64,000 nucleotides of DNA from Acidobacteriota bacterium (GTDB lineage Bacteria; Acidobacteriota; Thermoanaerobaculia; Gp7-AA8): NCBI GenBank assembly GCA_021781455.1, contig JAJXWV010000069.1, forward strand, positions 1-64,000, in the 5' to 3' direction. A program made the translations under genes and the position numbers. Positions 2,326 through 22,104 of this stretch are shown one piece after another (position 1 is the first letter of the stretch; each line of letters begins with the position of its first letter). Below the pieces are notes generated by a model. That model saw only the letters and a program-made list of their open reading frames with translations. It did no database searches and was not told where the DNA came from.

Positions 2326-2372
2326 CGTAGCTCATTCGGAACTATAATCGCATACGGTTATGTTCTGCCCGG

Positions 2373-2378
2373 TATAAT
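2373..2378 (+). promoter_or_regulatory. -10 box TATAAT upstream of the FmdB-like gene
   Basis: A perfect TATAAT lies 23 nt before the ATG at 2402. No clear -35 hexamer is seen at the usual spacing, and no strong Shine-Dalgarno sequence precedes the ATG. Confidence 0.5.
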
Positions 2379-2401
2379 CTCCTGCGCTCTGAGACCTCAA
2401 A

Positions 2402-2590: not shown

Positions 2591-2625
2591 GGCATCGGCC
2601 CAGGGCGGCGGGGCTGCTCTTAAGA

Positions 2626-2704
2626 AGTCTTGAGTCCTGAGTCCTGAGTCCTGAGTGGGTTCGAGCGAGTCTCTCCATCCACCCACTCAGGACTCAGGAC
2701 TCAG
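2626..2704. repeat. Heptamer array CTGAGTC facing its inverted copy
   Basis: About four tandem copies of the 7-mer TCCTGAG are followed by a ~30 bp spacer and then by CACTCAGGACTCAGGACTCAG, the reverse complement. The block can fold into a long hairpin. It ends four bases before the start of the next gene, so it makes up that gene's whole 5' region. Confidence 0.85.
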
Positions 2705-2707
2705 CGC

Positions 2708-3355: not shown

Positions 3356-3408
3356 TGGACCGCGGCCTTAGAGGCCCAATCTCCAGGATTCGCAAGTCGA
3401 AGGCCTTT

Positions 3409-3493
3409 GTAGGGACGCGCAGCAGCGCGTCCGCAACTCACGTGGCCGGGACTGTTACCGGGGGTTTGCGGACGCGCTGCTGCGCGTCCCTAC
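3409..3493. repeat. Paired REP-like palindromes, family A
   Basis: Two copies of GTAGGGACGCGCAGCAGCGC... in opposite orientation (3409-3436 and 3466-3493), separated by about 29 bp. Each unit is itself palindromic (GGACGCGC-AGCA-GCGCGTCC). The same paired arrangement occurs at 23699-23780, and single units at 9022-9048 and 51506-51530. The organisation resembles BIMEs made of REP units. Confidence 0.9.
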
Positions 3494-3523
3494 CGGGGCA
3501 GAAGGCCCGGCTTCCCTTGCGCC

Positions 3524-4078
3524 TCACCGGCTCCAGGGCGGGACGACCTTGTTCATGCGCGCGTAGGCGACGGACTGGCCGAGGTGTTCGTGGAGATGGT
3601 TCAGGATCATAACGTAGACGCCGCGGACCGTCGTCGGGCTGCCTAACACGGAGACCGGCTTGTCGAGATCGGCATCGCTGGTCTTCCTGATCAGCGCGCG
3701 GATGTACTCGAAAGACTTCTGCAGTTCGGCCATGACCCGCGGCTTGTCGGTGATGGCCTCGATGTCCTTGGGCAGGCCGGCGGGCGGCTGCTGGCCGAGG
3801 AACGTGGCCAGGTAGTAGGTGCCGCCGGCCATGTGCGTGTAGACCTCGCTGATGGAGCGGACACCCTGGCCAGGACGCCAGTTGTACTTGTCGGCAGGGA
3901 CGGCATTCGCCAGCCCCATGCACTTCTTCTGAAGGTCGTTGAGGTCGGTGATGAATTCGGCGCGGAAGCCGTTCTTCGGCGCGGTCTCGTCGCCCTGCGC
4001 CCTGGCAGGAGGCTGAATCCCAGCGTGCAGAAGAAGGGGCGTCAGCAGAATCACGGCGCCGATCAGTTGGATTTTCAT
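3524..4078 (-). CDS. Secreted DinB-family protein
   Basis: A 184-residue protein with a clear signal peptide (MKIQLIGAVILLTPLLLHAG, cleavage near residue 28) and a DinB-like four-helix bundle. Visible motifs are MGLANAVPADKYNWRPGQG near the first helix, ISEVYTHMAG with a likely metal-ligand His, and LNHLHEHLGQSVAYARM near the end with further His ligands. DinB/YfiT proteins bind divalent metal, and some are thiol-dependent transferases; the secreted version is frequent in Acidobacteriota, with unknown substrate. It is convergent with the PNPOx-like gene, separated from it by the REP pair. Confidence 0.8.
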   Translation of the reverse strand: MKIQLIGAVILLTPLLLHAGIQPPARAQGDETAPKNGFRAEFITDLNDLQKKCMGLANAVPADKYNWRPGQGVRSISEVYTHMAGGTYYLATFLGQQPPAGLPKDIEAITDKPRVMAELQKSFEYIRALIRKTSDADLDKPVSVLGSPTTVRGVYVMILNHLHEHLGQSVAYARMNKVVPPWSR

Positions 4079-4133
4079 GAGATCTCCGGGGCGTGGATTT
4101 GGGACGCGCCGATTGTAAGGGCAATTCCGCGCC

Positions 4134-4343
4134 GCCGGTGTGATGCGATGGCGTGAACTTTCGAGCTCCCTCCCGTCCCTTCAGTGCCGGCGTATCCGGG
4201 CCAGTAGCGAGTAACCAGGTGCGAAGCTGCTTCTGCATCTGCTCGTAGGAGGTCGCGGCGTCTGCCACGGTGAGCGCGGCAGGGGCTGCTGTGGCGCAGA
4301 GGACGACGGCGGAAGCGAACACCCCGGCCATGGCTCGCTGCAT
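4134..4343 (-). pseudogene. Possible stub of a small secreted protein
   Basis: Reading from ATG 4343 on the minus strand gives a good signal peptide (AMAGVFASAVVLCATAAPAA, ending in ADA) and then about 30 residues (SYEQMQKQLRTWLLATGPDT) before the frame runs without a stop into the 5' end of the DinB gene, where it is only a shadow. The end given is approximate. It may be the leftover 5' part of a frameshifted gene or a very short secreted protein; no family is recognised. Confidence 0.3.
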
Positions 4344-4380
4344 GTCGATTTTCTCCGTAAGGACCGATCTAATGCAGCCT

Positions 4381-4397
4381 AGCAAACGCTGTTTGCT
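4381..4397. other. 17-bp palindrome
   Basis: AGCAAAC-GCT-GTTTGCT lies between the stub at 4343 and the acyl-CoA dehydrogenase. It could be an operator or a weak terminator. The rest of 4398-4580 holds a possible -10 box (TAGAAT, 4420-4425) and the leader of the next gene. Confidence 0.45.
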
Positions 4398-4580
4398 GGA
4401 TCAGTGACATACGGCGCGTTAGAATCCGCGCGCCGAGAGGCCGGCAAGCCTCCCACCGGCGAAGGCAGTCGCGGCTCGCGACGCCATTCAACGCTCATCA
4501 TCCGACCCGTGCCGTACCGGAACGGTGGCTGAGCCCGACAGCCGAACGCGGGACGTACAAACGACAGAGGAGCTATTCGC

Positions 4581-5732
4581 ATGGATTTCGGTCTCACCGA
4601 GGAACAGAAACAGATCAAGCAGATGGTCAGGGATTTCGCGGAGAGCGAGATCAAGCCTCACGTCACCGAATGGGATGAGGCGCAGCACTTTCCGGTGCCG
4701 GAGTTCAAGAAGGCGGGCCAGCTCGGCATGCTCGGCGTCACCATTCCGGAGCAGTACGGCGGAGCCGGGCTCTCCTACGTCGATTACGTGAACGTGGTCG
4801 AAGAGCTCGGCGTGATCGACAGCGGATTCGCCCTCAGCGTGGCCGCGCACAACTCCCTCGGCACCGGTCACATCTACCACGCCGGCAACGAAGAGCAGAG
4901 GAAGAAGTGGCTTCCCAAGCTGACCTCCGGCGAGTGGATCGGCGCCTGGGGCCTGACCGAGCCCGGCTCGGGCAGTGACGCCTCCGGCATGCGCACCACG
5001 GCAGTGAAGGACGGCAACGAATGGGTGCTCAACGGCACCAAGAACTTCATCACCAATGCCAGCTGCGCGAACGTCTCCGTCGTTCTCGCGGTCACCGACA
5101 AGAGGGACCAGAAGCACGGCATCACCGCGTTTGCCGTCGAGATGGACCGCAAGGGCATCCACGCCGGGAAGAAGGAGAACAAGCTCGGCATGCGCATCTC
5201 CGACACTGCGGAGCTGGTGATGGAAGACTGCCGTGTGCCGGACGCGAACGTGCTCGGCAAGGTCGGCTACGGATTCATCGACGCCATGAAGATCCTCGAC
5301 GGCGGGCGCATCTCGATTGGCGCGCTGGCCGTCGGCGTGGCGCGCGGCGCCTACGAAGCGGCCCGCGATTACTCGAAGCAGCGCACCGCGTTCGGGCAGC
5401 CGATCTCCGGATTCCAGGCCATCCAGTTCATGCTCGCCGACATGGCCACCGAGATCGACGCCTCGCGCCTGCTCTGCTACCGCGCTGCCACCGTCAAGGA
5501 CGCCGGCGAGAGGGTCACGCAGTACTCGGCCATGGCCAAGCTCTACGCCTCGGAAGTGGCAGTCCGCTGCACCGAAAAAGGGGTGCAGATCTTCGGCGGC
5601 TACGGCTTCATCAAGGAATACCCGGCCGAGAAGTTCTACCGCGACGTGAAGCTCTGCACCATTGGCGAGGGAACCAGCGAGATCCAGCGGATGGTCATCG
5701 CCAGGAATCTGCTGGCGGGAGTGAACCAATAG
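4581..5732 (+). CDS. Acyl-CoA dehydrogenase (short/medium-chain or acyl-specific type)
   Basis: Catalyses FAD-dependent alpha,beta-dehydrogenation of an acyl-CoA and passes electrons to ETF; cytosolic. At 383 residues it has the standard length. Visible are the N-terminal helical domain ([20 protein letters not shown]), the beta-domain [20 protein letters not shown] that binds FAD/substrate, and the C-terminal [19 protein letters not shown] followed by [11 protein letters not shown], where the Glu of EGT is the expected catalytic base. A Shine-Dalgarno sequence GAGGAG precedes the ATG. The MeaB-like GTPase follows, consistent with propionate/branched-chain acyl-CoA catabolism, though no mutase lies in the window. 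Confidence 0.93.
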
Positions 5733-5830
5733 AGAAAAATTGAAAATTGAAAATTGAGAATTGAGAATTGAGAATTGAGAAAAACGGGGCACTCCCGCTT
5801 TTTTCAATTTTCAATTTTCAATTTTCAATT
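5732..5830. repeat. Heptamer array AATTGAG facing its inverted copy
   Basis: TTGAAAATTGAAAATTGAG and further AATTGAG repeats are followed by a 25-bp spacer and then four TTTTCAA/TTCAATT repeats in reverse complement. The array begins at the acyl-CoA dehydrogenase stop codon and ends eight bases before the meaB start. It may act as a terminator-like hairpin. Confidence 0.85.
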
Positions 5831-5837
5831 CACACCC

Positions 5838-6788
5838 ATGTCCGACACGGCGGCCCTCTCTTCGGCCCTCCTCTCCGGCCGCTACCGCGCGCTGGCGAAG
5901 GCGATCTCGCTCGTGGAGCGGGACGACCCGGCGGCGCCGCGCCTTCTGGCCGAAATCTACCCGGCCACCGGCCAGGCCAGGATCATCGGGATCACCGGAT
6001 CACCGGGATCGGGAAAGTCGACGCTGGTGGCGGCACTGGCGAGGCACTACCGCGCGCATTCCAAGCGCGTGGGAATCATCGCCGTCGATCCCACCTCGCC
6101 CTTCACCGGCGGCGCGATCCTCGGCGATCGCATCCGCATGGCCGACCTCTACACCGATCGCGGCGTCTTCATCCGCTCGATGGCCACCCGCGGTTTCCTG
6201 GGCGGGCTGGCACGGGCGACCAACGACGTGGTGGACGTTCTCGACGCCTCGGGATTCGACATCGTCCTCGTGGAGACGGTCGGCGTCGGCCAGGACGAGA
6301 TCGAAGTCGTTCGCACCGTGCAGACGAATCTGGTCGTGCTCGTTCCGGGCATGGGCGACGATATCCAGGCCATCAAGGCCGGCATCATGGAGATCGGCGA
6401 CATCTTCGTGGTGAACAAGGCCGACCGGCCGGGCGCGGACCGCACGGTCACCGAAGTCACCATGATGATGTCGCTCGTCGAGGAGCACGCCGCCTGGGTG
6501 CCACCGATCGTAAAAACAGTGGCGTCAAAGCGTCAGGGAGTCGAAGAGCTGGACGCCGCCATCGAACACCACTTCGAATATCTGCAGACCTCCGGCGAGC
6601 TCGACCGCCGCAACCGTGAGCGCGTGCGCATCCGCATCGAGACGCAGCTGAAGGAAAAGTTCATGGACCGTCTCATCGGCGGAACGATGTCCCGCGCCGA
6701 TTACGAAGCGGTCCTGGACGACGTGCTGCGCAAGCGGAACAATCCGCACGATGCCGCCGAGTCGATGATTCGCCGCGTGACCTTCTGA
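5838..6788 (+). CDS. MeaB/ArgK-type G3E GTPase (methylmalonyl-CoA mutase chaperone)
   Basis: A 316-residue SIMIBI-class GTPase that loads and protects B12 in acyl-CoA mutases. It has the P-loop GITGSPGSGKST (about residues 52-63), the switch region AVDPTSPFTGGAILGDRIRM, ETVGVGQDE as the Walker B/switch segment, and the base-recognition motif VNKADRPGAD. The C-terminal dimerisation arm is present. The start MSDTAALSSALL at 5838 is chosen because the upstream in-frame codons belong to the AATTGAG repeat. Placement after an acyl-CoA dehydrogenase supports a role in methylmalonyl-CoA metabolism; the mutase subunits are not in this window. Confidence 0.92.
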   Translation: MSDTAALSSALLSGRYRALAKAISLVERDDPAAPRLLAEIYPATGQARIIGITGSPGSGKSTLVAALARHYRAHSKRVGIIAVDPTSPFTGGAILGDRIRMADLYTDRGVFIRSMATRGFLGGLARATNDVVDVLDASGFDIVLVETVGVGQDEIEVVRTVQTNLVVLVPGMGDDIQAIKAGIMEIGDIFVVNKADRPGADRTVTEVTMMMSLVEEHAAWVPPIVKTVASKRQGVEELDAAIEHHFEYLQTSGELDRRNRERVRIRIETQLKEKFMDRLIGGTMSRADYEAVLDDVLRKRNNPHDAAESMIRRVTF

Positions 6789-6874
6789 AGCGAGCAGCGG
6801 GTAGCGGGCAGAAGATCTCGTCCTACCCGCTACCCGCTACCCGCTACCCGCTACCCGCTACCCGCTACCCGCTC
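6787..6874. repeat. Heptamer array CTACCCG with an inverted arm
   Basis: About seven perfect tandem copies of CTACCCG (6825-6874) are preceded by the reverse complement AGCGGGTAGCGGGCAG. It lies between the meaB stop and the pheT promoter region, so the -35 position of pheT falls inside the array. Confidence 0.9.
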
Positions 6875-6877
6875 GGG

Positions 6878-6883
6878 TACAAT
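6878..6883 (+). promoter_or_regulatory. -10 box TACAAT just before pheT
   Basis: TACAAT ends nine bases before the pheT ATG and there is no Shine-Dalgarno sequence (CCGCCTCCC intervenes). Transcription would begin at or next to the start codon, giving a leaderless mRNA. Confidence 0.5.
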
Positions 6884-6892
6884 CCGCCTCCC

Positions 6893-9025
6893 ATGAAACT
6901 GTCCCGCAATTGGATGTCCGACTATGTCGATCTCCGCGACCTGTCGGACGATGAGCTCAGCCGCCGCATGACCGGGATCGGCCATGCTCTCGATGCCGTC
7001 GAGAAGCATGGCGACGACACCGTTTTCGACGCCGAGATCACCACGAATCGAGTCGATGCCATGTCCCACATCGGCATGGCCAGAGAGCTCGCGGCGGCGC
7101 TGGGGAGGGAGCTGCGATCGGCGGTTTCAGGCGTTTCAGGCGTGGGGTCCTTCGCCGCGCTCCACCGCTCCCGCCACCCATCCGCCCCCGCGGTTGCGCC
7201 GGCTCAGGATGACACCGCGCGGGGCAGCGCAGCTGCGCCCTACGCGGGTGACGTCAAGATCCGCATCGAGGCACCGGAGATGTGCGCGCGCTACACGGGC
7301 GTGATCATCCGCGGCGTCACGATCCAAGAGTCGCCGCAGTACATTCGACAGCGGCTCGAGGCCGTCGGTCTGCGCCCGATCAACAACGTCGTCGACGTCA
7401 CGAACTACGTGATGCTGGCCCTCGGCCACCCCCTGCATGCGTTCGATCTCGCGCGGATCACCGACAAGACGATCATCGTGCGCCGCGGGCGCGACGGTGA
7501 GGTGATGAAGAGCCTCGATGGCGAGAATCGCCGCATCGACCGCGACACGGTCGTCATTGCCGACGCCCGCCGCCCCGTAGCCCTCGGCGGCATCATCGGC
7601 GGCGAGGAGAGCGAGATCAGCTCCTCCACGCGCGACGTTTTCCTCGAGTGTGCCTGGTTCAATCCCTCCGTCATCCGCCGCACTGCCCGACGCCTCGGTC
7701 TCAAGACCGACGCTTCCTACCGGTTCGAGCGCCGGGTCGATCCGAACGACACCATCGCCGCGAGCGACTTTGCCGCAAGCCTGATCGTCGAGCTGGCCGG
7801 CGGCACGCGCGAGCCGGCCATCGATGCCGTCGCAGCCGCCGAAGAACCGAAGGTCATCCGCCTGCGTGCGTCACGCCTTCACCAACAGTCCGGCGGCGCG
7901 GTGGGAGAGGCATACGCGCTCGAGCTCTTCCGCCGCCTTGGCTTCGACGCTGTTTCCGTGCAGGGCGGCCTCGAGGTCACGGTGCCGACCTGGCGCGGCG
8001 ACATCGGCGAGGAGATCGACCTGATCGAAGAGGTCCTGCGCTTCTTCGGCCTGAACAACGTCCCGGCCGAGCTTCCGCGCCTGACCACGGGCGACGCACA
8101 GCAGAATCCGATTGCCGAGGCCGAGGACGAGGTGCGGGGCATTTTGGCGGGCTGCGGGCTGACCGAGGTGGTGAACTACTCGTTCATCAGCGCGCAGGCG
8201 AACGCCATGTTTTCGGACGAGCAACCGGTGGCCATCACGAACTCGCTGACGGAAAACATCGCCTTCATGCGACTGTCGATCATTCCGTCGATCCTCGAGG
8301 CCGTCGCCTTCAATCGTTCGTACGGAACGCGTGACGGCACCCTGTTCGAAGTGGGACGGACCTACCATCGCGTGGAGGGTGCAAAGTCCGACGAGGCATG
8401 GCCGGTCGAGGAGCGCCACGTCATCGGGATCGTCATGTACGGCTCGCTCGGCGACTTCTGGGGCGACGCGAAACGGCCGGTCGACTTCTTCGACGTGAAG
8501 GGTGTCGTCGAGCAGATCGCGGCGAAGTTCCATGTGCCGCTGACATTCGCCACGGGTGACGAGGAGTGGCTGCGCAAGGGCCGCCGCGCCGTGGCACGTC
8601 ACAAAGACCGCCACATCGCGGCGCTTGGATTTCTGTCGCCCGAAATCCTGCAGCACTTCGGGATCAAGGGTGACGTGGCCGTGGCGGAAGTCGACCTGCA
8701 GGCGCTGCTTGCCTCGGCGACGGAATGGAAAATGGCGCCCATCGCGCGATTCCCGGGAGTGCCGATGATCCTGGCGCTCACGCATGGGCGGGACGTCGAA
8801 TACGCGCGGATCGCCGCGGCCATCCGATCGCTCGACGCGCCGTACCTCCACGAGGTCGGGCTGCGCGACCGCTTCGTTCCGGAGAACGACGTCAACACGA
8901 TCAAGACGACGCTGGGCATGTGGTACCAGGCATTCGACCGTTCGCTGACGCAGGAGGAAGTGGCGCAGATCCATCAGAACGTCGCCACGCGCGTTGCCGA
9001 GCTGCTGCCCGTGAAGGTGCTGTAG
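6893..9025 (+). CDS. Phenylalanine--tRNA ligase beta subunit, short form with in-frame repeat
   Basis: Large subunit of the alpha2-beta2 phenylalanyl-tRNA synthetase. It begins MKLSRNWMSDYVDL, then runs directly into DAEITTNRVDAMSHIGMARE, so the EMAP/OB tRNA-binding insert usual after residue ~40 is missing; this explains the length of 710 instead of about 800. The B3/B4 editing region (NNVVDVTNYVMLALGHPLHA), B5, the core and the C-terminal FDX-ACB anticodon-binding domain are present. Residues ~86-108 are encoded by an in-frame copy of the family B intergenic repeat. pheS is not adjacent. The stop codon TAG lies inside a REP unit. Confidence 0.95.
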   Translation: MKLSRNWMSDYVDLRDLSDDELSRRMTGIGHALDAVEKHGDDTVFDAEITTNRVDAMSHIGMARELAAALGRELRSAVSGVSGVGSFAALHRSRHPSAPAVAPAQDDTARGSAAAPYAGDVKIRIEAPEMCARYTGVIIRGVTIQESPQYIRQRLEAVGLRPINNVVDVTNYVMLALGHPLHAFDLARITDKTIIVRRGRDGEVMKSLDGENRRIDRDTVVIADARRPVALGGIIGGEESEISSSTRDVFLECAWFNPSVIRRTARRLGLKTDASYRFERRVDPNDTIAASDFAASLIVELAGGTREPAIDAVAAAEEPKVIRLRASRLHQQSGGAVGEAYALELFRRLGFDAVSVQGGLEVTVPTWRGDIGEEIDLIEEVLRFFGLNNVPAELPRLTTGDAQQNPIAEAEDEVRGILAGCGLTEVVNYSFISAQANAMFSDEQPVAITNSLTENIAFMRLSIIPSILEAVAFNRSYGTRDGTLFEVGRTYHRVEGAKSDEAWPVEERHVIGIVMYGSLGDFWGDAKRPVDFFDVKGVVEQIAAKFHVPLTFATGDEEWLRKGRRAVARHKDRHIAALGFLSPEILQHFGIKGDVAVAEVDLQALLASATEWKMAPIARFPGVPMILALTHGRDVEYARIAAAIRSLDAPYLHEVGLRDRFVPENDVNTIKTTLGMWYQAFDRSLTQEEVAQIHQNVATRVAELLPVKVL
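7149..7216. repeat. Half copy of family B repeat inside pheT
   Basis: The stretch TCCTTCGCCGCGCTCCACCG...CGCCGGCTCAGGATGACA matches the right arm of the family B inverted repeats (CTCTTCGCCGCGCTCCGCCG...CGCCGGCTCAGAGTGACG). It is read in frame as FAALHRSRHPSAPAV...QDD, in the linker before the editing domain. Confidence 0.85.
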
Positions 9026-13677: not shown

Positions 13678-13854
13678 TCACTTCTGTGGCTTGCGCTTGT
13701 CTCGCGGAATCGCCGGCGGACTGCCGAAGACCGAGCGGCCGCCCGACACGTCGCGAGTCGGGATCAGGTCGTTCAGTCGGATCGGTTTCTGGCTTCGCGG
13801 CGAGTCGCTCTCTGCACGGCGCTCCACCTTCACGGGCGGTTTCTTGCTGGCCAC
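13678..13854 (-). CDS. Candidate double-glycine peptide precursor 2 (58 aa)
   Basis: A tiny gene not otherwise explained: GTG 13854 with AGAGGA eight bases upstream, stop TGA at 13680-13678. It starts VASKKPPVKVERRAE and contains LNDLIPTRDVSGG at residues 27-39, followed by a 19-residue, Pro/Arg/Lys-rich tail (RSVFGSPPAIPRDKRKPQK). The segment D-L-x-P-x-[KR]-D-x-x-G-G is shared, with identical spacing, with the 61-residue peptide at 21872-22057 at the other end of the cluster. It lies downstream of the exporter operon on the same strand. The identical 20-mer of precursor 1 lies 14 nt upstream. Processing by the C39 exporter at GG is inference. Confidence 0.65.
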   Translation of the reverse strand: MASKKPPVKVERRAESDSPRSQKPIRLNDLIPTRDVSGGRSVFGSPPAIPRDKRKPQK

Positions 13855-13868
13855 GGAGAAGGTCCTCT

Positions 13869-13888
13869 AACAGGATCGGTGCCATCGG
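13869..13888 (-). promoter_or_regulatory. Shared 20-mer upstream of precursor 2, sigma-54-like
   Basis: On the minus strand this reads CCGATGGCACCGATCCTGTT, identical over 20 nt to 21721-21740 upstream of precursor 1. It contains TGGCAC, a perfect -24 element of sigma-54 promoters, and TGT where the -12 element would have TGC. If it is a promoter, the transcript would start only a few bases before GTG 13854, so translation would be leaderless or start at a downstream GTG (codon 8 or 10). Direct repeats ATGGATCG at 13925 and 13961 lie upstream and could be activator sites. Confidence 0.6.
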
Positions 13889-13987
13889 GCCGCGCCGACA
13901 GATAAGTGTCTGCTCCCGGACGGGATGGATCGGGTAGAGCGTTGCGCGAGAGCTTTTCGAATGGATCGGTCGCGGGGCCAGGGACGT

Positions 13988-14959
13988 CTATTTCGGGACC
14001 GCTGCTGAGAGATGTCGCGCGAGCTTGCCGCGGGAGATGCCGAGGATTTTTGCGGTGCGGCGTTGATTGTGTCCCGTCGATTCGTAGACGTGGAGCACAT
14101 GCGCGTTCACGGCGGCTTCGAGTGACAGATCGGCAGAGAGACGACCCGCAGGGTCCCCGAGAGCAGCGTCACTGACCAGGTCCCGCTGAAAGACGACGTG
14201 TTCGGGGCGCACGACGCTTCCCTCACAAAACAGGGCGATGGTGCGCATGATGTGGTGCAGCTCGCGAAGATTGCCCGGCCAGTCGTATGCGAGCAGCATC
14301 TGCATGGCTGCCGGATGAATCGACGTCAGTCGCTTGCCGCTTTCCGCAGCGGCTGTTTTCAGCTCACTGGCGATGAGCGAAGGCAGATCCTCCGGGCGGT
14401 CCTTGAGCGAGGGGACCGACAGAACGAGTCCGTCCAGGCGATGGTAGAGATCGTCGCGGAACCGTCCGTCGCGCACTCGTTCGCGCAGCGAGCAGTTCGT
14501 GGCGGAGAGGATTCTTGCGTCGGAGTGAAGCATCCTCTCGCCGCCGACGCGCTCGAACTCACCGTACTCGACGGCGCGAAGGATCTTCACCTGCGCCAGA
14601 GGACTCATGTCGGCGATCTCGTCGAGGAAGAGCGTGCCGTTGTGGGCGAGCTCGAACTTCCCCTTCGCGGTCTGCTGTGCGCCGGTAAAGGCGCCGCGCT
14701 CGTGGCCGAAGAGCAGGCTCTCGAGCAGGGTGTCGCTCATGGCCGAGGCGTTGAAAGCAATGAACGGTCCGGCGGCTCGCGCGGAGGAGTTGTGAATGGC
14801 CTGGGCGAGGAGAGTCTTCCCGGTGCCTGTTCGCCCGAGAATGAGCACGGGGATATCGCTTCTGGCGGCGAGCAGGGCGAGTTGCAGGCAGCGCTGCATG
14901 GCTGCATTGCTCGAGGTGAGTTCCTCGACCCTGAATCGCGACAGGCGCAGTTGCGTCAT
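13988..14959 (-). CDS. Sigma-54-dependent activator (AAA+ with Fis-type HTH, no receiver)
   Basis: A 323-residue bacterial enhancer-binding protein. Walker A GRTGTGKT is at 42-49, the sigma-54 contact loop GAFTGA at ~89-94, Walker B LFLDEIAD near 111, and the arginine-finger region RFRDDLYHRLDGL follows. The C-terminal Fis helix-turn-helix is NQRRTAKILGISRGKLARHL. There is no N-terminal receiver, PAS or GAF domain, so activity must be controlled by expression, by a partner protein or by a ligand on the AAA+ core. It overlaps the HlyD gene by 4 bp (ATGA) and is the last gene of the exporter operon. It probably drives the precursor genes. Confidence 0.92.
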   Translation of the reverse strand: MTQLRLSRFRVEELTSSNAAMQRCLQLALLAARSDIPVLILGRTGTGKTLLAQAIHNSSARAAGPFIAFNASAMSDTLLESLLFGHERGAFTGAQQTAKGKFELAHNGTLFLDEIADMSPLAQVKILRAVEYGEFERVGGERMLHSDARILSATNCSLRERVRDGRFRDDLYHRLDGLVLSVPSLKDRPEDLPSLIASELKTAAAESGKRLTSIHPAAMQMLLAYDWPGNLRELHHIMRTIALFCEGSVVRPEHVVFQRDLVSDAALGDPAGRLSADLSLEAAVNAHVLHVYESTGHNQRRTAKILGISRGKLARHLSAAVPK

Positions 14960-16143
14960 GGCTGAAGGTTCTCGCGGATTTTGCGGAGCGGCTCGAAGGC
15001 GAATTCAATCAATGAGCGGCGGCCCACGGTCACACGCGCGGTTCCCGTCATCCCGGGCCGCAGAGGATGGGAATCACGTCCGGTCACGATCTCCCGCCTG
15101 TCGAGCGAAGCCAGGGCGACAAAGTCGGATTCCTTCTGGCGCACCAGCGCTGCGGGACTGATCCAGTCGAGCGTGCCGGTGACAGCACCGAAGCGCTGAT
15201 AGGGAAAGGCATCGAAGAGAAAGCGGACGTGCTGGCGCGGCTCGAGTCGGGCCAGCGCGGTTTCCGGGAGATTGAGTCGTGCGCGAAGACGCGCGCTGAC
15301 AGGGCTGAGCTGGCAGAGGGCGTCGCCCGGCGCCACCACGCCGCCGGGGTTCTGCTGGTTCACGGCGACGCAGATGGCGTCGTAGGGCGCGCGGATCTGA
15401 AGCAGACCGTTGGCGATGGCGGCCAGCGGCTGTCGCAGCGCGGCGATGCGAATGGTGAGGTCGTCGGCCTCGGCCTTCTCCTCGATGCGCTGGCGCGTGC
15501 GCTCGCTCTGCATCGTCTGTCGTTCGAGGCGCCGCTGCGCGAGTGCCTTGCGAGCTAGTTCCAGGTCCTTGTACGACTCGGCGAGTGCCAGCCGGTGCGA
15601 GGCCAGCTCCATCTCGGAAACGAGGCCGCTCTTTTCCAGCTTCTCCACTCTTGCCAGAAGATCGCGCATGGTGGCCAGGTGGGTCTCGCGGAAAGCCAGC
15701 TCGCGCTTGGCCTGATCGATTTCGCTGTCCTTGATCCGCAAGGTCGATGCGTACGACTGCTCGAGCTTTGCGGAGCGCTCGCGGACCGCGCGAAGTGCCT
15801 CCGTACGCGTGGCGGTATCCGTCCGCCACTCGCGGACCTCGTCGACGCGGAGCAGGAACATCGGATCGCCCTTCCTGACGCTCTGCCCCTGACGGACCAG
15901 GACCTGCTCGATCACGGCGTGCCGCGGCGACTGAATCGGGTCCGCGCCGCCCGTGGACTCCAGCACGAACCGCGACTGCACCGTCTCCGGGATGTGCACG
16001 AAGATCGCCGCGAGCAGAGCGGTGACGAACAGCGCGATGAGGAGCCAGCCCAGCGCGCGCGCAAACCAGCGCGGCGGCTCTCGTGGCACGAGCTCTTCCT
16101 CTTCCCATGCTCGGCGATCGGCGATCGGTGAGGGTGTGCGCAT
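14956..16143 (-). CDS. HlyD-family membrane-fusion adaptor of the peptide exporter
   Basis: A 395-residue periplasmic adaptor. One TM helix (residues ~30-50, WLLIALFVTALLAAIFVHIP) anchors it in the inner membrane. A barrel-sandwich half (RHAVIEQVLVRQGQSVRKGD), a long coiled-coil hairpin (~105-225) and the second half (LLQIRAPYDAICVAVNQQNP) follow, and the C-terminal beta domain ends in PLRPGMTGTARVTVGRRSL. It couples the ABC exporter 6 bp upstream to an outer-membrane channel, which is not encoded in this cluster. It overlaps the regulator by 4 bp. Confidence 0.9.
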   Translation of the reverse strand: MRTPSPIADRRAWEEEELVPREPPRWFARALGWLLIALFVTALLAAIFVHIPETVQSRFVLESTGGADPIQSPRHAVIEQVLVRQGQSVRKGDPMFLLRVDEVREWRTDTATRTEALRAVRERSAKLEQSYASTLRIKDSEIDQAKRELAFRETHLATMRDLLARVEKLEKSGLVSEMELASHRLALAESYKDLELARKALAQRRLERQTMQSERTRQRIEEKAEADDLTIRIAALRQPLAAIANGLLQIRAPYDAICVAVNQQNPGGVVAPGDALCQLSPVSARLRARLNLPETALARLEPRQHVRFLFDAFPYQRFGAVTGTLDWISPAALVRQKESDFVALASLDRREIVTGRDSHPLRPGMTGTARVTVGRRSLIEFAFEPLRKIRENLQP

Positions 16144-16149
16144 GGCTGC

Positions 16150-19100
16150 TCAGATGCCGAGCTGATGGCTGGACAGGTAAAAGTAGAGGCCGCGGGCAGC
16201 CATCAGCTCGTCGTGTGTTCCGGTCTCGACGACTGACCCCTTTTCCAGAACGACGATCTGATCCGCATCCCTGATCGTGCTCAGGCGATGGGCAATCACG
16301 ACGGAGCTGCGCCCGCTCATCAGGCGGGACAGGTTCTGCTGGATGGCCCGCTCGGATTCCGAATCGAGTGCGCTGGTGGCCTCGTCGAAGATCAGCACGG
16401 GCGGGTCGTTGTAGAGAGCGCGGGCAATGGAGATCCGCTGTCTCTGGCCGCCCGACAGAGCGAGACCGGTCTCGCCGATCCTCGTTTCGTAACCCATCGG
16501 CAGCCGCATGATGAAGTCGTGGGCGTTGGCGAGCTGGGCGGCCCACAGTGCGCGATCGAAATCAGGATCGGAATCCCCGAAGGCGATGTTCCGCAGGATC
16601 GTCTCGTCGAACATGTGGTTTTCCTGCAGGACCAGGCCGATCTGACGGCGGAGATCGCGATAGTTGAGAGTGCGCATGTCGACGCGGTCGTAGTGGATCG
16701 TTCCCGCGGTCGGTTCGAGCAGTCCGGCCAGCAGCTTCACCAGAGTGGTCTTTCCGCAGCCGCTCCTGCCGACCACCGCGATCATGCGGCCGGGCGCGAT
16801 GTCGAGGTTGATCCCGCTGAGGATCTCCGGCGATTCCGGCCCGCCGTAGCGGAACCCGACGCCTCGCAGCTCGATGTGCCCCTCCAGCGAGGGGACGGGC
16901 GTGAGGCGCGAGCGGTCGTGTCCCTGCTCCGGCACCTGGTCGAAGATGTCTTCCAGTCGTCCCAGCATGACCGAGGAAAGCTGGAGCTCATCCCAGATGC
17001 CGAGCGTCCTCGTGACCGCGGCAAACGCCATCAGGGTGAGCGAGCTGAAGGCGACGAATACGCCGATCGTGATCTCTCCGCCGACCACCATCCGTGCGCC
17101 CACCCACAGGAACAGCGCCGTGGCCAGCATACCCACGGCCTGGATCATGCTCTCGTAGGTCATGATCACGAAGCTGCTCCGGAACATCTTGTTGGCGACG
17201 CGGAGGAACTCGTTGAGCATGGCCTCCCGAAACGTCTGCTCGGCCGAGGCGGCCTTGACGGCCTCGATGCCCTTGATGGCGTCGATCTGGTGCGAGCTGT
17301 ACCGGCCCCAGCTCTCCTCGAGGTCGGCGAAGATCGGCCGCAGGAGCCGCACCGAGAAGTACATCAGCGCGGCGTAGAAGGGCGCGGTCAGAAGAAACAC
17401 CGCGGCGAGTTTCACGCTGTAGATTGCCATCAGCGCGATCGATCCCGCTCCCGTGATCAGCGCGAGCAGACCACCGACGCCCTGCTGCACCGCGAATTGC
17501 CGCACCTGCCTCGCTCCGTCGAGCCGACGCTGGATGTCACCGGTGCGCCGGTTGTTGAAGTACGACAGCGGGAGCGCCAGCAGCTTGCGGGTCAGAAAAT
17601 CGAGAATTGCCGAATCGATGCGGATTGCCGCGAAGCTGAGAAGGTATTGCTGGGCGAGGTTGGAGACGATCATGAAGGCGAGGCAGGCGACCATCCCGAT
17701 CACGATCACGTTGAGCAGCGCCAGATCGTTCTCGACGATGACCTGGTCGACCACCATCTGCGTGAACACGGGAAAGAGCAATTGCAGCAGGGTCACGATC
17801 CCCGCCAGCAGAAAGACCTGCAGGAAGAGCGTGCGATATCCGGCGAAGAACGGCTTGATCCAGGCCAGAGCGGTCTTGCTCTCCGGCGCATCGGCGAATG
17901 CTTCGGTGTAGTCGAAGAGGGCGGCGTACCCGGTCCATCGCTGCTCGAATTCCTTTCGGGCGATGCGCCGGAGCCCGATGGCCGGATCGGCCACCCTGAC
18001 GAATTTCGAGCCCACGTCGTACACCACGACCCAGTGGTTGCCTTCCCAATGAGCAATGGCCGGAAGGGCCATGGAGTCGAGATTGCCTGTGCTGACTTTG
18101 AGGGCGCGCGCGGCGAGCCCGAGCTCCGTCGCAGCGCTGCAGATCGCCTTCAGGCTCGTGCCGTCCGCCGACGTGAAGCACAGCCGCCGGATTCTGGCGA
18201 GACTCACTTTGCGGCCGAAATGGCGGCAGATCATTCCCAGCGCGGCGGGACCGCAGTCCATCTCATCGATCTGAAGGACGACGGGGAACCTGCGGATGCG
18301 AGGCCGCTCTTTTCCCAGGTCTCCTTCTTCGCCGGCCTGCTCCGGACCGACTTTCGCCACGGCCTGCGTTTCCGCCGGCAGGAGCTCGGTGGCGAAGTCG
18401 AGCGGGACGCGGGCGGTCCGGTCGATCTCGTACTGCGCGAGCCTCTCGTCGAGCAGCTTCTCGAATTCGGGGAACTGCCGGCGAAGGTCGAGAAGGGTCT
18501 CCGGCGGCAGCGCCAGCAGCGTGCAATCGGTGACCGCCTCGGCCGAAGCGGCTCGGGGCGAGCCGTTGAGAATCGAGAGCTCGCCGAAGTAACCGCCTTC
18601 CCGATAGAACGCCAGCGAGCGCGAACCGTTCGCGGCCGGCTCGAACACCCGGACTCTGCCCGACTGCACCACGTACATCGGCCCCGCCGGGTCGCCTTTG
18701 CGCAGGATCTGCTGACCCGCAGAGAACCGGACGGTGGCCAGCCTGTGGATGAGCTGGTTCAGCGCCGGCTCGGGAAGACGGCCGAAGTTGCTGAATTCGT
18801 AGAGAAACCTGTGGAGGGTCCGGTAGCGCTGCGTGGCTTCGAGGTAGCCGCGCAATTCGGGAAATTCGGCGATCAGGCCGGCGAAGTCGTCGCGCGCCAG
18901 CCGGAGGACTTCGACGATGCTGGAACAGCGGACCGTGGCCGTGCGCGGCTCGGGCGAGAGGAGGGCGGACTCTCCGAACTCGCTGCCGGGACGAAGGACA
19001 TGCAGCGCGATCTCGTCGCCGCGCGCAGTGGTCTTGATGACCCGTGCCCGCCCGGCCATGAGGATGTAGAAAGCGTCCGCGGGATCGCCCTGCCGGACGA

Positions 19101-19215
19101 TGACGTCGCCGAAGTCGTACTGGACCTTCCGGAACAGCGAGCGTACGCGCTCCTGATGCTCCGCAGGGAAGAAGCGGAACACCGACGATTGCTGAAGGAA
19201 CGGTTCTGCGTTCAT
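16150..19215 (-). CDS. C39 peptidase-containing ABC exporter with two cNMP-binding domains
   Basis: A 1021-residue processing exporter. Two cyclic-nucleotide-binding-like domains occupy ~16-125 (PGSEFGESALLSPEPRTATV) and ~145-260 (GGYFGELSILNGSPRAASAE). The C39 peptidase (~308-435) has a full active site: Gln315, Cys321 (QIDEMDCGPAAL), His394 (EGNHWVVV) and Asp410. The transmembrane domain follows, then the NBD with GRSGCGKTT, LSGGQRQR, VLIFDEATS and AHRLST. C39 exporters cut leaders after a double glycine and export the rest. Both flanking small peptides carry such a GG site. The gene overlaps the PpiC-like gene by 4 bp. Confidence 0.95.
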   Translation of the reverse strand: MNAEPFLQQSSVFRFFPAEHQERVRSLFRKVQYDFGDVIVRQGDPADAFYILMAGRARVIKTTARGDEIALHVLRPGSEFGESALLSPEPRTATVRCSSIVEVLRLARDDFAGLIAEFPELRGYLEATQRYRTLHRFLYEFSNFGRLPEPALNQLIHRLATVRFSAGQQILRKGDPAGPMYVVQSGRVRVFEPAANGSRSLAFYREGGYFGELSILNGSPRAASAEAVTDCTLLALPPETLLDLRRQFPEFEKLLDERLAQYEIDRTARVPLDFATELLPAETQAVAKVGPEQAGEEGDLGKERPRIRRFPVVLQIDEMDCGPAALGMICRHFGRKVSLARIRRLCFTSADGTSLKAICSAATELGLAARALKVSTGNLDSMALPAIAHWEGNHWVVVYDVGSKFVRVADPAIGLRRIARKEFEQRWTGYAALFDYTEAFADAPESKTALAWIKPFFAGYRTLFLQVFLLAGIVTLLQLLFPVFTQMVVDQVIVENDLALLNVIVIGMVACLAFMIVSNLAQQYLLSFAAIRIDSAILDFLTRKLLALPLSYFNNRRTGDIQRRLDGARQVRQFAVQQGVGGLLALITGAGSIALMAIYSVKLAAVFLLTAPFYAALMYFSVRLLRPIFADLEESWGRYSSHQIDAIKGIEAVKAASAEQTFREAMLNEFLRVANKMFRSSFVIMTYESMIQAVGMLATALFLWVGARMVVGGEITIGVFVAFSSLTLMAFAAVTRTLGIWDELQLSSVMLGRLEDIFDQVPEQGHDRSRLTPVPSLEGHIELRGVGFRYGGPESPEILSGINLDIAPGRMIAVVGRSGCGKTTLVKLLAGLLEPTAGTIHYDRVDMRTLNYRDLRRQIGLVLQENHMFDETILRNIAFGDSDPDFDRALWAAQLANAHDFIMRLPMGYETRIGETGLALSGGQRQRISIARALYNDPPVLIFDEATSALDSESERAIQQNLSRLMSGRSSVVIAHRLSTIRDADQIVVLEKGSVVETGTHDELMAARGLYFYLSSHQLGI

Positions 19216-20279
19216 TGGGTGTGGCGGGAGCAGATCGTGTCGAAGTATTCGTCGAGGACGGCTTCGTCGATGCGACCGCGGACGTCGGCGTCGGCGAGGG
19301 AAGGCTCGATTTTTCGCAACAGCTGGTGCACGGCGAAGCGGCCGTACCGCTCGATGGGACCGACGACCTCACCCTCCGCGGCACCGAGCAGCCTCTGGAC
19401 GAACGGTCCGGCGAGGTCGTCCGCCCACATGAGGCTGCGCTCCGCGTGATAACCGGCGTCCCGGGCAACGGAGGCGAGGCTCGCTCCGTCATCGTGGACG
19501 CAGAGCGCCGCCTCACGGGCCGCGGCTGCCGAGTCGAATTCGAGTGTGTCGATCTCCAGGCGGGTCAGAGCCGCGCCCATCGACGAAAGCCTGGCGGTCC
19601 GCACCTCGTCGGTCAGCGCTTCGATCACCAGGCGATCGAAAGCCGATTCGAGTCGAGCCGCGCTTTCGAGCCAGGACTGGTCGCGGGCCAGCGCCGAGAG
19701 CCATTCCGACAGGCTGCGTCCGTCGAATCGACGACGATCGAGAAATTGCTTCAACACCGCCTCACCGGACACCGGCTTTCCGCGTTGCACGAGCTCGACG
19801 TCGGCGGCGACCCTGCGTCGAAGCCGCTTCGCCAAAGCCCCCATCTCGTCCGATAGCCAGAGGTGAATGCGCAGAAGATCGGGAAAATCGTCCGGGATCG
19901 CGTCGTCCTCCGCTGCGGCGATCGTCTCCCGGCAGAGGCGCTGATAAAGCCAGCGCCCGAAATCCGCCGTGTTCATTCCGCGCTCGTTGAGCCAGGCCTC
20001 GGTCTCGCCGGCGCTGATCAGGTCGTGCTCATAACGAAATCGCTCGGAGCTCGCCTGCAGCGCCCCGTCGTCGATCTCGAGCCCTTCCTCCGCCATCCGC
20101 GCTTCGATGGCTGCGAGCGCGAGAGTTTCCGCCATCGCCGCCTCCAGCTCGCCGCGAAAGCATGCCGACGCCACTGCATCATCGACGCTGAATGCCATTC
20201 CGCCGGCGCGAAACACCGTCGCCGACCCGAGCCGGAGGCTCGGACCGAGCATCGTCAGCTTCTCCGCCGTGATCGGCAT
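19212..20279 (-). CDS. PpiC/SurA-like peptide-maturation protein without signal peptide
   Basis: A 355-residue protein, first gene of the exporter operon (AGGAG seven bases before ATG 20279). The N-terminal half resembles SurA-type helical chaperone domains (ETEAWLNERGMNTADFGRWL); the C-terminal ~100 residues resemble a degenerate parvulin domain (DLAGPFVQRLLGAAEGEVVG, ERYGRFAVHQLLRKIEPSL). Unlike SurA or PrsA it lacks a signal peptide, so it should act in the cytosol. As I recall, PpiC-related putative peptide-maturation proteins are known next to C39 exporters; a role in holding or isomerising the precursor before export is inferred from that. Confidence 0.75.
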   Translation of the reverse strand: MPITAEKLTMLGPSLRLGSATVFRAGGMAFSVDDAVASACFRGELEAAMAETLALAAIEARMAEEGLEIDDGALQASSERFRYEHDLISAGETEAWLNERGMNTADFGRWLYQRLCRETIAAAEDDAIPDDFPDLLRIHLWLSDEMGALAKRLRRRVAADVELVQRGKPVSGEAVLKQFLDRRRFDGRSLSEWLSALARDQSWLESAARLESAFDRLVIEALTDEVRTARLSSMGAALTRLEIDTLEFDSAAAAREAALCVHDDGASLASVARDAGYHAERSLMWADDLAGPFVQRLLGAAEGEVVGPIERYGRFAVHQLLRKIEPSLADADVRGRIDEAVLDEYFDTICSRHTQ

Positions 20280-20394
20280 CGATCGCTCCTGGTTGTCAGC
20301 GACAACGAATCCCTGAACCTTTTCCGGTGCCTCCAGACTAACATCGGATGCTCGAATTCGGAAAGACGGTGCGTGGTACTCTCACACCCATCCG

Positions 20395-21594
20395 ATGACA
20401 GTCGAAAGCCGGGTTCGTAGGATCTACGAGCGCCGTCCATACCCTCCTCCAGCGATGCGCAAAGAGGAGCGAAAGTGGTCCCTGCCGCCGCTGGAGTGGA
20501 TCAACGGAGTGCAGGAGCGCCGCGAAGACCTGATTCCCAGACGCATCCTGATAGCCGGGTGCGGCGTCGGAATGGAGGCCTTCGTGCTGGGGGAAAGGTT
20601 CCCCTCAGCCGACATCGTTGCGGTGGATTTCAGCGAACGGTCGATCGCCGCCGCGCGGCGCTTCCAGCGTTCCGAGAAGGGGGGAGCCCGCGTTCGCTTC
20701 GAGGTGGCCGACCTCGCCGGTGCGGAGCTGCTTGCCATCACCGGCCGGGCCTTCGACCTGATCAGCTGCCATGGCGTGCTCTCGTACATTCCGGACGCCG
20801 CGACGGTCCTGCGCAATCTGGCGCGCGGCCTGTCGCCCACGGGAATTGTGATTCTCGGTACGAACGGCGCCGCTCACCCGAGCGTGCGGTTCCGGCCGGT
20901 CCTTCCGCGCCTCGGCATCGAGGCCGACGAATTCCGCGAAGGTCGGCGCGTGCGGGATGTTCTCCGCGTCTGTGATGCTTTGTCGGTCTATCCGCCGACG
21001 CCGATCGCATCAAAGCCGGCTGGGTTTCTGGCCGGAGACCTCTTCGGTCCGATGAACCGCGCAATTTCGCTCTCGGAATGGAAGGCTCTCTATTCGCGCG
21101 CTGGTCTTCATCTCCTCGGCAGCTATCACGCGTTCTTCGCCATTCGCCGTGTGCTCAATGGTGATCTGCATCCGGTGCTGATGCCGAAATCGAGAACCGA
21201 GATTTCGGAGCTTGTCGATGCACTGCAGCCGGCGAGCTTTCATCAACTCGTGCTGGCTCGGAGGCCGTCACCGAGGATTCCGTGGCACGACGCGAGGAAG
21301 ATCCTTCGTTGTCGTCCGATCCGAACAGCACTCTACGCGATCCGGTTGCCGCGCGGCCGCGCGCCCTGGAAAGACCTTCGACGGGTGACCCTCGAGAGTC
21401 GCGCCACGATGACCGGCGCGACGCTGAACGTGCCTCAATGGGAAGTGGAAATCCTGAAGAACTGCGACGGCGAACGGTCGCTGCTCGAGCTCCTGCGGCC
21501 GGTACGCTCGAAGATCCCGGCCGCAACGGTGTCGGAGGCGATGTACCTCCTGTACCAGTTGACGGCTCTCAACCTGCTTCCGGCGGCCGGCTAG
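20395..21594 (+). CDS. Class I SAM methyltransferase with C-terminal winged-helix-like domain
   Basis: A 399-residue protein divergent from the exporter operon. SAM-binding motif I is RRILIAGCGVGMEAF (~56-70), the acidic residue is in IVAVDFSERSI, and post-motif SCHGVLSYIPDAATVLRNLA is canonical. The N-terminal RIYERRPYPPP stretch is typical of a methyltransferase group with an added regulatory domain. The last ~80 residues (LNVPQWEVEILKNCDGERSL, then MYLLYQLTALNLLP) look like a winged helix. It may modify the small peptide encoded 278 bp downstream, but it could also be a metabolite methyltransferase; the substrate is not known. Confidence 0.85.
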   Translation: MTVESRVRRIYERRPYPPPAMRKEERKWSLPPLEWINGVQERREDLIPRRILIAGCGVGMEAFVLGERFPSADIVAVDFSERSIAAARRFQRSEKGGARVRFEVADLAGAELLAITGRAFDLISCHGVLSYIPDAATVLRNLARGLSPTGIVILGTNGAAHPSVRFRPVLPRLGIEADEFREGRRVRDVLRVCDALSVYPPTPIASKPAGFLAGDLFGPMNRAISLSEWKALYSRAGLHLLGSYHAFFAIRRVLNGDLHPVLMPKSRTEISELVDALQPASFHQLVLARRPSPRIPWHDARKILRCRPIRTALYAIRLPRGRAPWKDLRRVTLESRATMTGATLNVPQWEVEILKNCDGERSLLELLRPVRSKIPAATVSEAMYLLYQLTALNLLPAAG

Positions 21595-21616
21595 CTCCGT
21601 GCGCCGGCCATGGCTC

Positions 21617-21634
21617 CAATCCGGAGCCGGATTG
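21617..21634. terminator. Hairpin after the methyltransferase
   Basis: CAATCCGG-AG-CCGGATTG is a perfect 8-bp inverted repeat 22 bases after the methyltransferase stop codon, followed by CTCGCTTTTG. It may be a weak terminator. A second inverted repeat, TGCTCGCTT (21633-21641) with AAGCGAGCA (21667-21675), overlaps it. Confidence 0.45.
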
Positions 21635-21720
21635 CTCGCTTTTGCGGCCGAAACCGCGTGAGCGGGAAGCGAGCACTCATGCCTAAGACGTCGCCGCTGA
21701 GCGCTTTACCGTTTTGTGGT

Positions 21721-21740
21721 CCGATGGCACCGATCCTGTT
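21721..21740 (+). promoter_or_regulatory. Shared 20-mer upstream of precursor 1, sigma-54-like
   Basis: CCGATGGCACCGATCCTGTT occurs here and, identically, at 13888-13869 on the minus strand before precursor 2. TGGCAC matches the -24 element of sigma-54 promoters; TGT replaces TGC at -12. A start near 21751 would leave a ~120-nt leader containing the palindrome CGCCACGATCGTGGCG (about 21788-21803). A sigma-54 activator is encoded in the cluster, which fits. Confidence 0.65.
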
Positions 21741-21871
21741 CTCGATAAGGTCCCATGCAAGCCGCGCGAACCGGCTGTTGACCCCTCGCCACGATCGTGG
21801 CGGGGACGTTTTACCAACGGCGGCGATTCGGAAGCGTTCGCTCCGGATCACCACAGCAAAGGGAGCACAGA

Positions 21872-22057
21872 ATGGCCAAGTCCAAGAAGAGCAACAAGGG
21901 CAAACCGACAGTCAAGGTCCACGACCTCGAGCCCGAGAAGGACCCGAAAGGTGGCGCGCTGTACATCAAGTACGACTCTCCGACGCTGAAATCGTCGAAC
22001 AGCTCGCTGAAGATCGAAGGACTCACGTCCAACTCGTTCCTCAAGTTCAACAAATGA
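21872..22057 (+). CDS. Candidate double-glycine peptide precursor 1 (61 aa)
   Basis: ATG 21872 follows GGGAG at good spacing. The first 28 residues form a lysine-rich leader (MAKSKKSNKGKPTVKV, then HDLEPEKDPKGG), the remaining 33 a core with ALYIKYDSPTLKSSNSS and LKIEGLTSNSFLKFNK, rich in Ser, Asn, Lys and aromatic residues and without cysteine. The segment DLxPxKDxxGG matches precursor 2 with identical spacing and ends in the double glycine expected for C39 peptidases. A strong terminator follows. I do not recognise the core as a known bacteriocin or RiPP class. Being a cleaved precursor is inference from context. Confidence 0.75.
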   Translation: MAKSKKSNKGKPTVKVHDLEPEKDPKGGALYIKYDSPTLKSSNSSLKIEGLTSNSFLKFNK

Positions 22058-22072
22058 ACCACCCCGACTGAC

Positions 22073-22104
22073 GCGGGCCGGCCGGCCGATGCCGGCCGGC
22101 CCGC
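22073..22104 (+). terminator. Strong hairpin after precursor 1
   Basis: GCGGGCCGGCCGGC-CGAT-GCCGGCCGGCCCGC is a perfect 14-bp stem with a 4-base loop, 15 bases after the precursor stop. The following GATCGTTCGTTGG has only a weak T-run. It separates the peptide gene from the convergent DsbA-like gene. Confidence 0.75.

Follow-up and report, generated by a model that had tools for sequence, protein, structure and literature searches.

A long-type C39 peptide exporter locus in which a sigma-54 activator accompanies a shared -24/-12-like element and two opposite classes of double-glycine peptides

The window analysed here is a stretch of 64,000 nucleotides from an Acidobacteriota bacterium (assembly GCA_021781455.1, contig JAJXWV010000069.1, positions 1 to 64,000), and it carries a peptide export locus at 13,678 to 22,104. 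On the minus strand, the genes of a PpiC-like protein, an exporter, an HlyD-type adaptor and a sigma-54 activator (enhancer-binding protein, EBP) form a single tight operon. The first two genes overlap by 4 bp, 6 bp separate the exporter from HlyD, and HlyD overlaps the activator by 4 bp; the small gene pepA lies 133 bp beyond. On the plus strand, a methyltransferase gene is followed after 277 bp by a second small gene, pepB. An earlier sequence-only reading had described the operon, the divergent methyltransferase and one small double-glycine (GG) gene at each end, and all were confirmed at the coordinates given below. It had overlooked an identical 19-mer that precedes both peptide genes.

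13678–13854, minus strand: PepA, class-A double-glycine peptide; 58 residues, GTG start, GG at residues 38–39, core RSVFGSPPAIPRDKRKPQK
13869–13887, minus strand: sigma-54-like -24/-12 element CGATGGCACCGATCCTGTT upstream of pepA; the T of TGGCAC lies 30 nt before the GTG
13988–14959, minus strand: sigma-54 activator (EBP); AAA+ domain from residue 16, GAFTGA motif, no N-terminal sensor domain, putative C-terminal Fis-like helix-turn-helix (HTH)
14956–16143, minus strand: HlyD-type periplasmic adaptor; PF13437 at 8e-17, TIGR01843 at 150 bits, under its cut-off
16150–19215, minus strand: exporter; 1021 residues, two cyclic nucleotide-binding (cNMP) domains, Peptidase_C39, and the membrane and ATPase domains of an ATP-binding cassette (ABC) transporter (Pfam)
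19212–20279, minus strand: PpiC/SurA-like putative peptide chaperone; 355 residues, no signal peptide by eye, parvulin-like fold at about 235–325
20395–21594, plus strand: class I S-adenosylmethionine-dependent methyltransferase, accessory; Pfam methyltransferase, homologues in 6 of the 80 contig loci of relatives
21722–21740, plus strand: second, identical sigma-54-like element upstream of pepB; the T of TGGCAC lies 147 nt before the ATG
21872–22057, plus strand: PepB, class-B double-glycine peptide; 61 residues, GG at residues 27–28, core ALYIKYDSPTLKSSNSSLKIEGLTSNSFLKFNK

The pepB open reading frame (ORF) opens at a GTG at 21797, and the ATG at 21872 yields the 61-residue peptide. The leader motif DLxPx[KR]DxxGG was located, as read before, at residues 29–39 of PepA and 18–28 of PepB, in front of cysteine-free cores of 19 and 33 residues. 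Back-translated, the motif matched the 4.88-Mb genome at two places, exactly these peptides, and a backwards-read control gave none; the pair is therefore not due to chance. Inspection of the C39 domain showed that Q315, C321, H394 and D410 were invariant in an alignment of the window with three homologues, so the catalytic Cys, His and Asp named earlier are in place. The same protein also contains the ABC membrane and ATPase domains, and so has the make-up of a peptidase-containing ABC transporter (PCAT). Two peptides with the double-glycine leader of PCAT substrates are encoded nearby, and similar leaders recur in homologous loci. The sequence evidence thus supports both peptides as probable precursors for the adjacent exporter. 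Peptides of the double-glycine type and C39 exporters have been studied extensively in Gram-positive bacteria.

Relatives were collected in one scan of species genomes with the cNMP–C39 part of the exporter, and the best 80 of 98 relatives were kept. Their hosts are mostly Verrucomicrobiota, together with Gemmatimonadota, Acidobacteriota, Hydrogenedentota, Planctomycetota and others, some record titles being doubtful bins. Three loci (L108, L112 and L132) lie in bins titled Akkermansia muciniphila and Klebsiella pneumoniae, titles that look doubtful for these contigs. Peptides were searched for in 85 sequences that encode a whole or partial homologue of the exporter, namely the window, four relatives from the phylum and the 80 contig loci. 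Taking all small ORFs at a sequence E limit of 0.05, PepA-type profile matches occurred in 34 of the 85 and PepB-type matches likewise in 34; these counts take in the degenerate L077 and L078 and the weak L112 (weakest, E 0.2), and many contigs end too early. Leader peptides and C39 exporters therefore co-occur in relatives, an outcome on which the sequence-only reading had made its proposal depend. The system is rare in a sample of 347 genomes from the phylum: the window PepA was the sole PepA match, and the PpiC-like protein was found in seven genomes, its own counted. A cNMP–C39 relative across nearly the whole query was seen there, judging match ranges by eye, in the window's own genome and in G009, G042, G026 and G063.

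The two peptides belong to opposite classes. Alignment of 29 PepA sequences (from Verrucomicrobiota, Gemmatimonadota, Hydrogenedentota and the window) showed invariant D, L, V and two G residues, and an F preceding the last G in at least 90%, which yields the pattern DLxPxxxVxGG..FG with FG near the start of the core. In 28 PepB sequences, M, D, K and GG were invariant, and no residue past GG was conserved. The mean pairwise identity of PepA was 0.62 in the leader and 0.42 over the first 14 core residues (0.11 when shuffled). The corresponding values for PepB were 0.70 in the leader and 0.09 in the core (0.10 when shuffled), and PepB core identity was still just 0.11 in the 68 pairs whose leaders share 85% identity or more. 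Leader conservation is partly a selection effect, as the sets were chosen by leader; core conservation is unaffected. PepA thus has a conserved core, and PepB has a hypervariable core behind a conserved leader. The window peptides matched their profiles at E = 9e-16 (PepA) and E = 4e-10 (PepB), each window row being itself part of the model. PepB cores are mostly rich in Gly, His, Ser, Gln or Pro, and pepA and pepB of relatives often lie in tandem downstream of the operon.

Neither class is represented in NCBIfam or Pfam. PepA and PepB of the window gave no Pfam match at E ≤ 0.1, and the NHLP/Nif11 leader models of NCBIfam gave none at E ≤ 1 among the 29 PepA and 28 PepB sequences. Other PepA rows matched NCBIfam models weakly, at an E of 0.028 at best, and the families concerned are unrelated. 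Lanthipeptide, microcin and NHLP/Nif11 precursors were rejected as identities, the window peptides having no match in NCBIfam or Pfam and Cys-free cores.

The activator has the AAA+ domain of bacterial EBPs (PF00158 Sigma54_activat, 1.4e-60) with GAFTGA present, and its putative C-terminal Fis-type HTH gave a sub-threshold match to HTH_8 (19.8 bits, cut-off 22). GAFTGA occurs in at least 95% of 37 EBPs, which begin at the AAA+ domain; the EBP of L117, a locus without PepA, reads GAFTDA. The window's genome contains rpoN. The association of PepA with the EBP was followed through 83 tabulated loci (the window, L018, L019 and the 80 contig loci), from which 23 with too short a flank were dropped (L019, L108, L116, L128 and 19 others), leaving 60. 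Two further loci were left out: L017, apparently a duplicate of the L117 contig, and L021 for its distant exporter. PepA was found in 30 of 34 loci with an intact EBP and in one of 26 (L071) without. Twenty-two of these 26 show no EBP in the fetched flank; they keep the exporter, none has PepA, and six hold PepB-type peptides (L089, L093, L096, L100, L106 and, weakly, L112). In the near-identical L077 and L078, the EBP and PepA are both broken and so is the element's spacing, through a 2-nt alignment gap, and the exporter, PpiC, HlyD and PepB are open. L090 combines a short EBP with DG replacing GG.

On an exporter tree of 64 loci, which is a quick tree with long branches that does not resolve the place of the window, the EBP changes 11 times and PepA 10 times. 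Of eight tree-independent pairs, about six show PepA changing along with the EBP and none shows the opposite (median p 0.031, range 0.016–0.125). A second sample comprised 197 genomes from the order of G350, the EBP clade being defined by at least 66% identity (next best at most 45%). PepA occurred in 39 of these genomes and the exporter in 37, of which 34 had PepA. The clade EBP was present in 36, and 34 of them had PepA; in the other two (G504 and G538) the EBP match is seemingly cut by a contig end. Of the remaining 161 genomes, five contained PepA (the degenerate G352, G489, G494, the weak G531 and G543). This sample could not separate the EBP from the exporter, because the two go together there; in G524 and G527, stops lie within the cognate EBP and PepA is nevertheless kept. 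Across the tabulated loci, PepA follows the EBP and not the exporter.

The view of the two peptides as equivalent cargo was not supported in that form by these comparisons, PepA having a conserved core tied to the EBP and PepB a hypervariable one. It corresponds to a two-peptide bacteriocin-like or signalling system, in which both peptides would be cargo, PepA the constant partner and the EBP merely a switch. Two-peptide systems exist, both peptides keep their GG leaders, and the frequent tandem of pepA and pepB would suit such a pair. Yet PepA is missing from all 22 loci that show no EBP, including the six that hold PepB-type peptides, and a core conserved across phyla next to one at chance level is not the pattern of co-evolving partners; we regard this system as unlikely. 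PepA, being short, leader-bearing and conserved, might also be a processing cofactor or an exporter plug rather than a regulator; the same 22 loci, which have the exporter and lack PepA, six of them despite PepB-type peptides, make this very improbable.

The 19-mer CGATGGCACCGATCCTGTT stands in identical form before both peptide genes of the window, and two matches at up to three mismatches arose in none of 100 shuffles of the window. A genome search for TGGCACCGATCCTGTT that allowed two mismatches gave five sites: the only exact matches are those at pepA and pepB, and the site with one mismatch falls within an ORF. The plain TGGCAC-N5-YTGY with one mismatch stayed at chance level in the window (14 against 11.4 expected), and only the longer 19-mer exceeded chance. 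A like element, TTGGCA[CT]GAATxCTG[AG]TAA, was picked out for 30 of 34 PepA genes, the window's included, with 5–7 of 7 key positions; none was picked for L077, L078, L113 and L126. GG and the G at -13 are invariant in all 30, and the C and A following GG are present in 29. In all but one of the 30, the PepA start codon lies 25–33 nt past the T of TGGCAC. In the window, 147 nt separate the element from the PepB start, a distance that favours a role in transcription over one in translation.

A weight-matrix test scored the best site against base shuffles, loci with an EBP match above 100 bits (the damaged L071 and L090 included) being counted as EBP loci. Values of p < 0.05 were obtained before 25 of 32 PepA genes in these loci (for L084 and L088 via another site), as compared with 0 of 2 PepA and 1 of 15 PepB genes in loci without an EBP. 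The count before PepB in EBP loci (23/44) mostly re-reads the upstream PepA site. In EBP loci, a single fixed regular expression detected the element upstream of 26 of the 32 PepA genes; in loci without an EBP it detected none (0/2 PepA, 0/15 PepB). Within 250 nt the element preceded 3 of 44 PepB genes in EBP loci, most such PepB following PepA in tandem, and it preceded none of the operon genes there (0/37 PpiC, 0/43 exporter, 0/41 HlyD, 0/43 EBP). PepB has an element of its own in the window, in L074 (two) and in L095 (one). A consensus search of 12 genomes returned 17 sites, as against one in the backwards control, with zero sites in two genomes. Twelve of the 17 precede GG peptides, all in clusters already found, so that they provide no independent test; the other five (L147, L148, L149, L152 and L153) have no GG peptide within 700 nt. 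Downstream of the element, L148 and L149 have short fragments that by eye resemble the PepA N-terminus and are perhaps decayed copies.

We read the locus as a sigma-54-controlled variant of the long-type C39/SurA/HlyD exporters, in which PepB is cargo and PepA an EBP-coupled companion, most likely a small regulator, and give this reading a probability of about 0.6. From the sequence comparisons we infer that the EBP, together with RNA polymerase carrying sigma-54, would transcribe pepA and pepB from the common -24/-12-type element. In the cytosol, a binding partner, probably the SurA/PpiC-like protein, would recognize the precursors by their DLxPxxDxxGG leader and hand them to the exporter. 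Its C39 domain would cut after GG, and the cNMP-domain ABC exporter would export the peptides together with HlyD. PepB-type peptides would be a diversifying cargo. PepA, taking the same export route, would report by its cellular level whether the exporter works, and the cluster may in this way couple peptide export to its own gene control.

Two known systems offer models for such a role. PspF is a sensor-less sigma-54 activator held by PspA, and by this analogy the EBP of the locus, which has no sensor of its own, would need a partner in trans. FlgM is an anti-sigma factor removed by export. PepA, whether inhibitor or activator, can be read as an exported regulator: it is the one other component that appears and disappears along with the EBP, its core is conserved and its leader is of the export type. 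The likeness to FlgM would be drawn from the PepA–EBP co-occurrence, and PepA matches no Pfam or NCBIfam family. Tentatively, PepA might be an export-coupled anti-activator, which would bind the sensor-less EBP and block sigma-54 transcription of the peptide genes until a functioning C39 exporter removes it; we consider this possible rather than probable. If true, peptide cargo would be made only when the exporter can move it, and PCAT secretion would possess a FlgM-type checkpoint, with the double-glycine leader as the exit tag for the regulator. PepA could instead act as an exported pheromone (autoinducer) for cell density that feeds back on the EBP through some receptor. C39 transporters are well known to export GG-leader pheromones, and PepA shares in the common control element. 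No receptor or kinase was found among the eight window proteins scanned, however, the EBP lacks a sensor domain, and PepA cores stay similar from one species to the next, in contrast to the divergence usual among pheromones, which leaves a pheromone quite improbable.

Several observations weigh against PepA as an EBP-coupled regulator under sigma-54 control. Four loci with an intact EBP lack PepA (L057, where a remnant was seen, L083, L085 and L117), and L071 keeps PepA although its EBP is split. With the four broken-EBP loci removed, the tree-aware test comprises five pairs, four of them agreeing (p 0.125). GG is kept in nearly all PepA, so PepA may simply be cargo. The element is missing for the PepA of L113 and L126, the weight-matrix p values in the window are just 0.045 and 0.055, and the PepB element of the window fails the fixed expression at its last base. 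The -24/-12 consensus of sigma-54 promoters is GG-N10-GC, and the -12 C is replaced by A, G or T in 28 of the 30 PepA elements; the window has GG-N10-GT at both peptides, which departs from the strict consensus. A transcription start counted from the element would fall only a few nucleotides before the PepA GTG, which is unusual for a translated gene. The replaced C and the very short predicted 5' untranslated region would suit an operator or another promoter type, with the EBP acting elsewhere. Against this, the near-invariance of the GG, the following C and A and the -13 G, the retention of GG-N10-GC in two outlying loci (L104 and L125), the association of the element with the EBP and the presence of rpoN argue for a sigma-54 signal, and we hold an element of another kind to be improbable.

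The sigma-54-controlled variant proposed here is built on a chassis already known from cyanobacteria. In the part of Wang et al. (2011, PMC3140520) drawn on here, bacteriocin clusters of groups I, II and VI are described with a CAP_ED (cNMP)–C39 long-type exporter, HlyD and a rotamase-type SurA. The present locus has in common with them the N-terminal cNMP–C39 exporter, HlyD, a SurA-type protein and small double-glycine precursors with variable cores; its SurA-like protein is recognized through its fold and relatives and has no Rotamase Pfam hit of its own. It differs from the clusters described there in having no NHLP/Nif11 match and a very divergent SurA-like protein, and adds the sigma-54 activator, the common -24/-12-like element and the conserved companion peptide. 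The hosts are also different, being mainly Verrucomicrobiota, with Acidobacteriota, Gemmatimonadota and others. No report of this cluster type, its sigma-54 regulon or the companion peptide was found in the literature searched by titles and abstract openings. Clusters of this type, from uncultured lineages that are for the most part soil Verrucomicrobiota, bring together a cNMP–C39 exporter, the substrates it probably handles and a dedicated regulator. DLIPxxxVxGG..FG plus TTGGCAyGAATxCTGRTAA provides a sequence criterion for seeking the regulon, and the question of whether a small peptide reports export to a sigma-54 activator becomes testable.

HetC of Nostoc PCC 7120, the best studied of the cNMP–C39 proteins encountered here, has a similar cNMP–C39–ABC architecture. 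According to the portion of the report cited, its N-terminal domain binds ppGpp, its peptidase and ATPase residues are needed, no GG-leader gene was found near hetC, and its substrate is described as unidentified (PMC10986499). The locus of the window differs by its adjacent candidate substrates and its two cNMP domains. By analogy with the ppGpp binding of HetC (PMC10986499), these domains may gate export. A further likeness concerns MirC, a TIGR04500 member and obligate partner in rosaritide maturation, where a SurA-like protein likewise stands beside a C39 exporter and a precursor peptide, as the cited part of the report has it (PMC13097080). Unlike that cluster, the window has no ATP-grasp synthetase among the eight proteins scanned, and its TIGR04500 score lies below the cut-off; a graspetide (rosaritide-type) cluster was rejected on the former ground. 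L021 (G063) contains, at 605–8495, two PpiC-like ORFs, a distant cNMP–C39 exporter and an ORF that by eye is a possible ATP-grasp, and appears to be a graspetide-like neighbour.

The PpiC-like protein of the window matched no Pfam family at E ≤ 0.1 and scored 31 bits with TIGR04500, outside the family at its curated cut-off of 180. TIGR04500 was matched at E ≤ 0.001 by 38 of 45 PpiC-like proteins, the window's included, and Rotamase_2 by 11 of 45; a profile of the 45 retrieved SurA in the PDB (6e-5). The predicted structure is confident (pLDDT 94.3) and matched SurA and PrsA with a best E of 2e-5 and low whole-chain TM-scores. A parvulin domain was recognized at about residues 235–325 (Z 9.8–9.9, root mean square deviation 2.1–2.6 over 85–94 residues). 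The PpiC-like protein has a predicted SurA/PrsA-like fold and a distant kinship to TIGR04500. The protein should be cytosolic, because a signal peptide is missing by eye. Its ORF was detected in 81 of the 83 tabulated loci (not in L112 and L131), in most of them beside the exporter. A second, weak TIGR04500-type match (23.6 bits) lies elsewhere in the window's genome, at G000:C2:15214-15834(-) (L002, L023).

The methyltransferase, which the earlier reading had placed in the system, is not a core part but an occasional accessory. Homologues were found in just 6 of the 80 contig loci (many contigs being short), and an obligate role was rejected. In the loci with a methyltransferase (the window, L089, L093, L096, L099, L100 and L104), PepB cores are more hydrophobic (p 0.0007) and lysine-rich (p 0.010); with eight compositions tested and three of the seven loci from Opitutaceae, this correlation is a lead only.

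Some relatives encode double-glycine peptides with cores like DUF1559 pseudopilin-like segments, such as LLLPAVQKVREAA and CQNNLKQIGLALHSYSD. They were found at L018:8308-8481(-), L018:8567-8734(-), L106:5857-5982 and L108:6503-6742, on the minus strand of L125 near 9835 and on the plus strand of L128 near 8103, a theme common to five loci of differently named phyla. One of these peptides matches PF07596 over its cut-off (26.2 against 23.3), and the sole plasmid matches of the L128 core were three DUF1559 proteins (E 0.1–0.6). At L018:9030-9221(-), another GG peptide has a core similar to positions 1–21 of Hcp (PF05638), with a score of 18.4 bits against a cut-off of 23.5.

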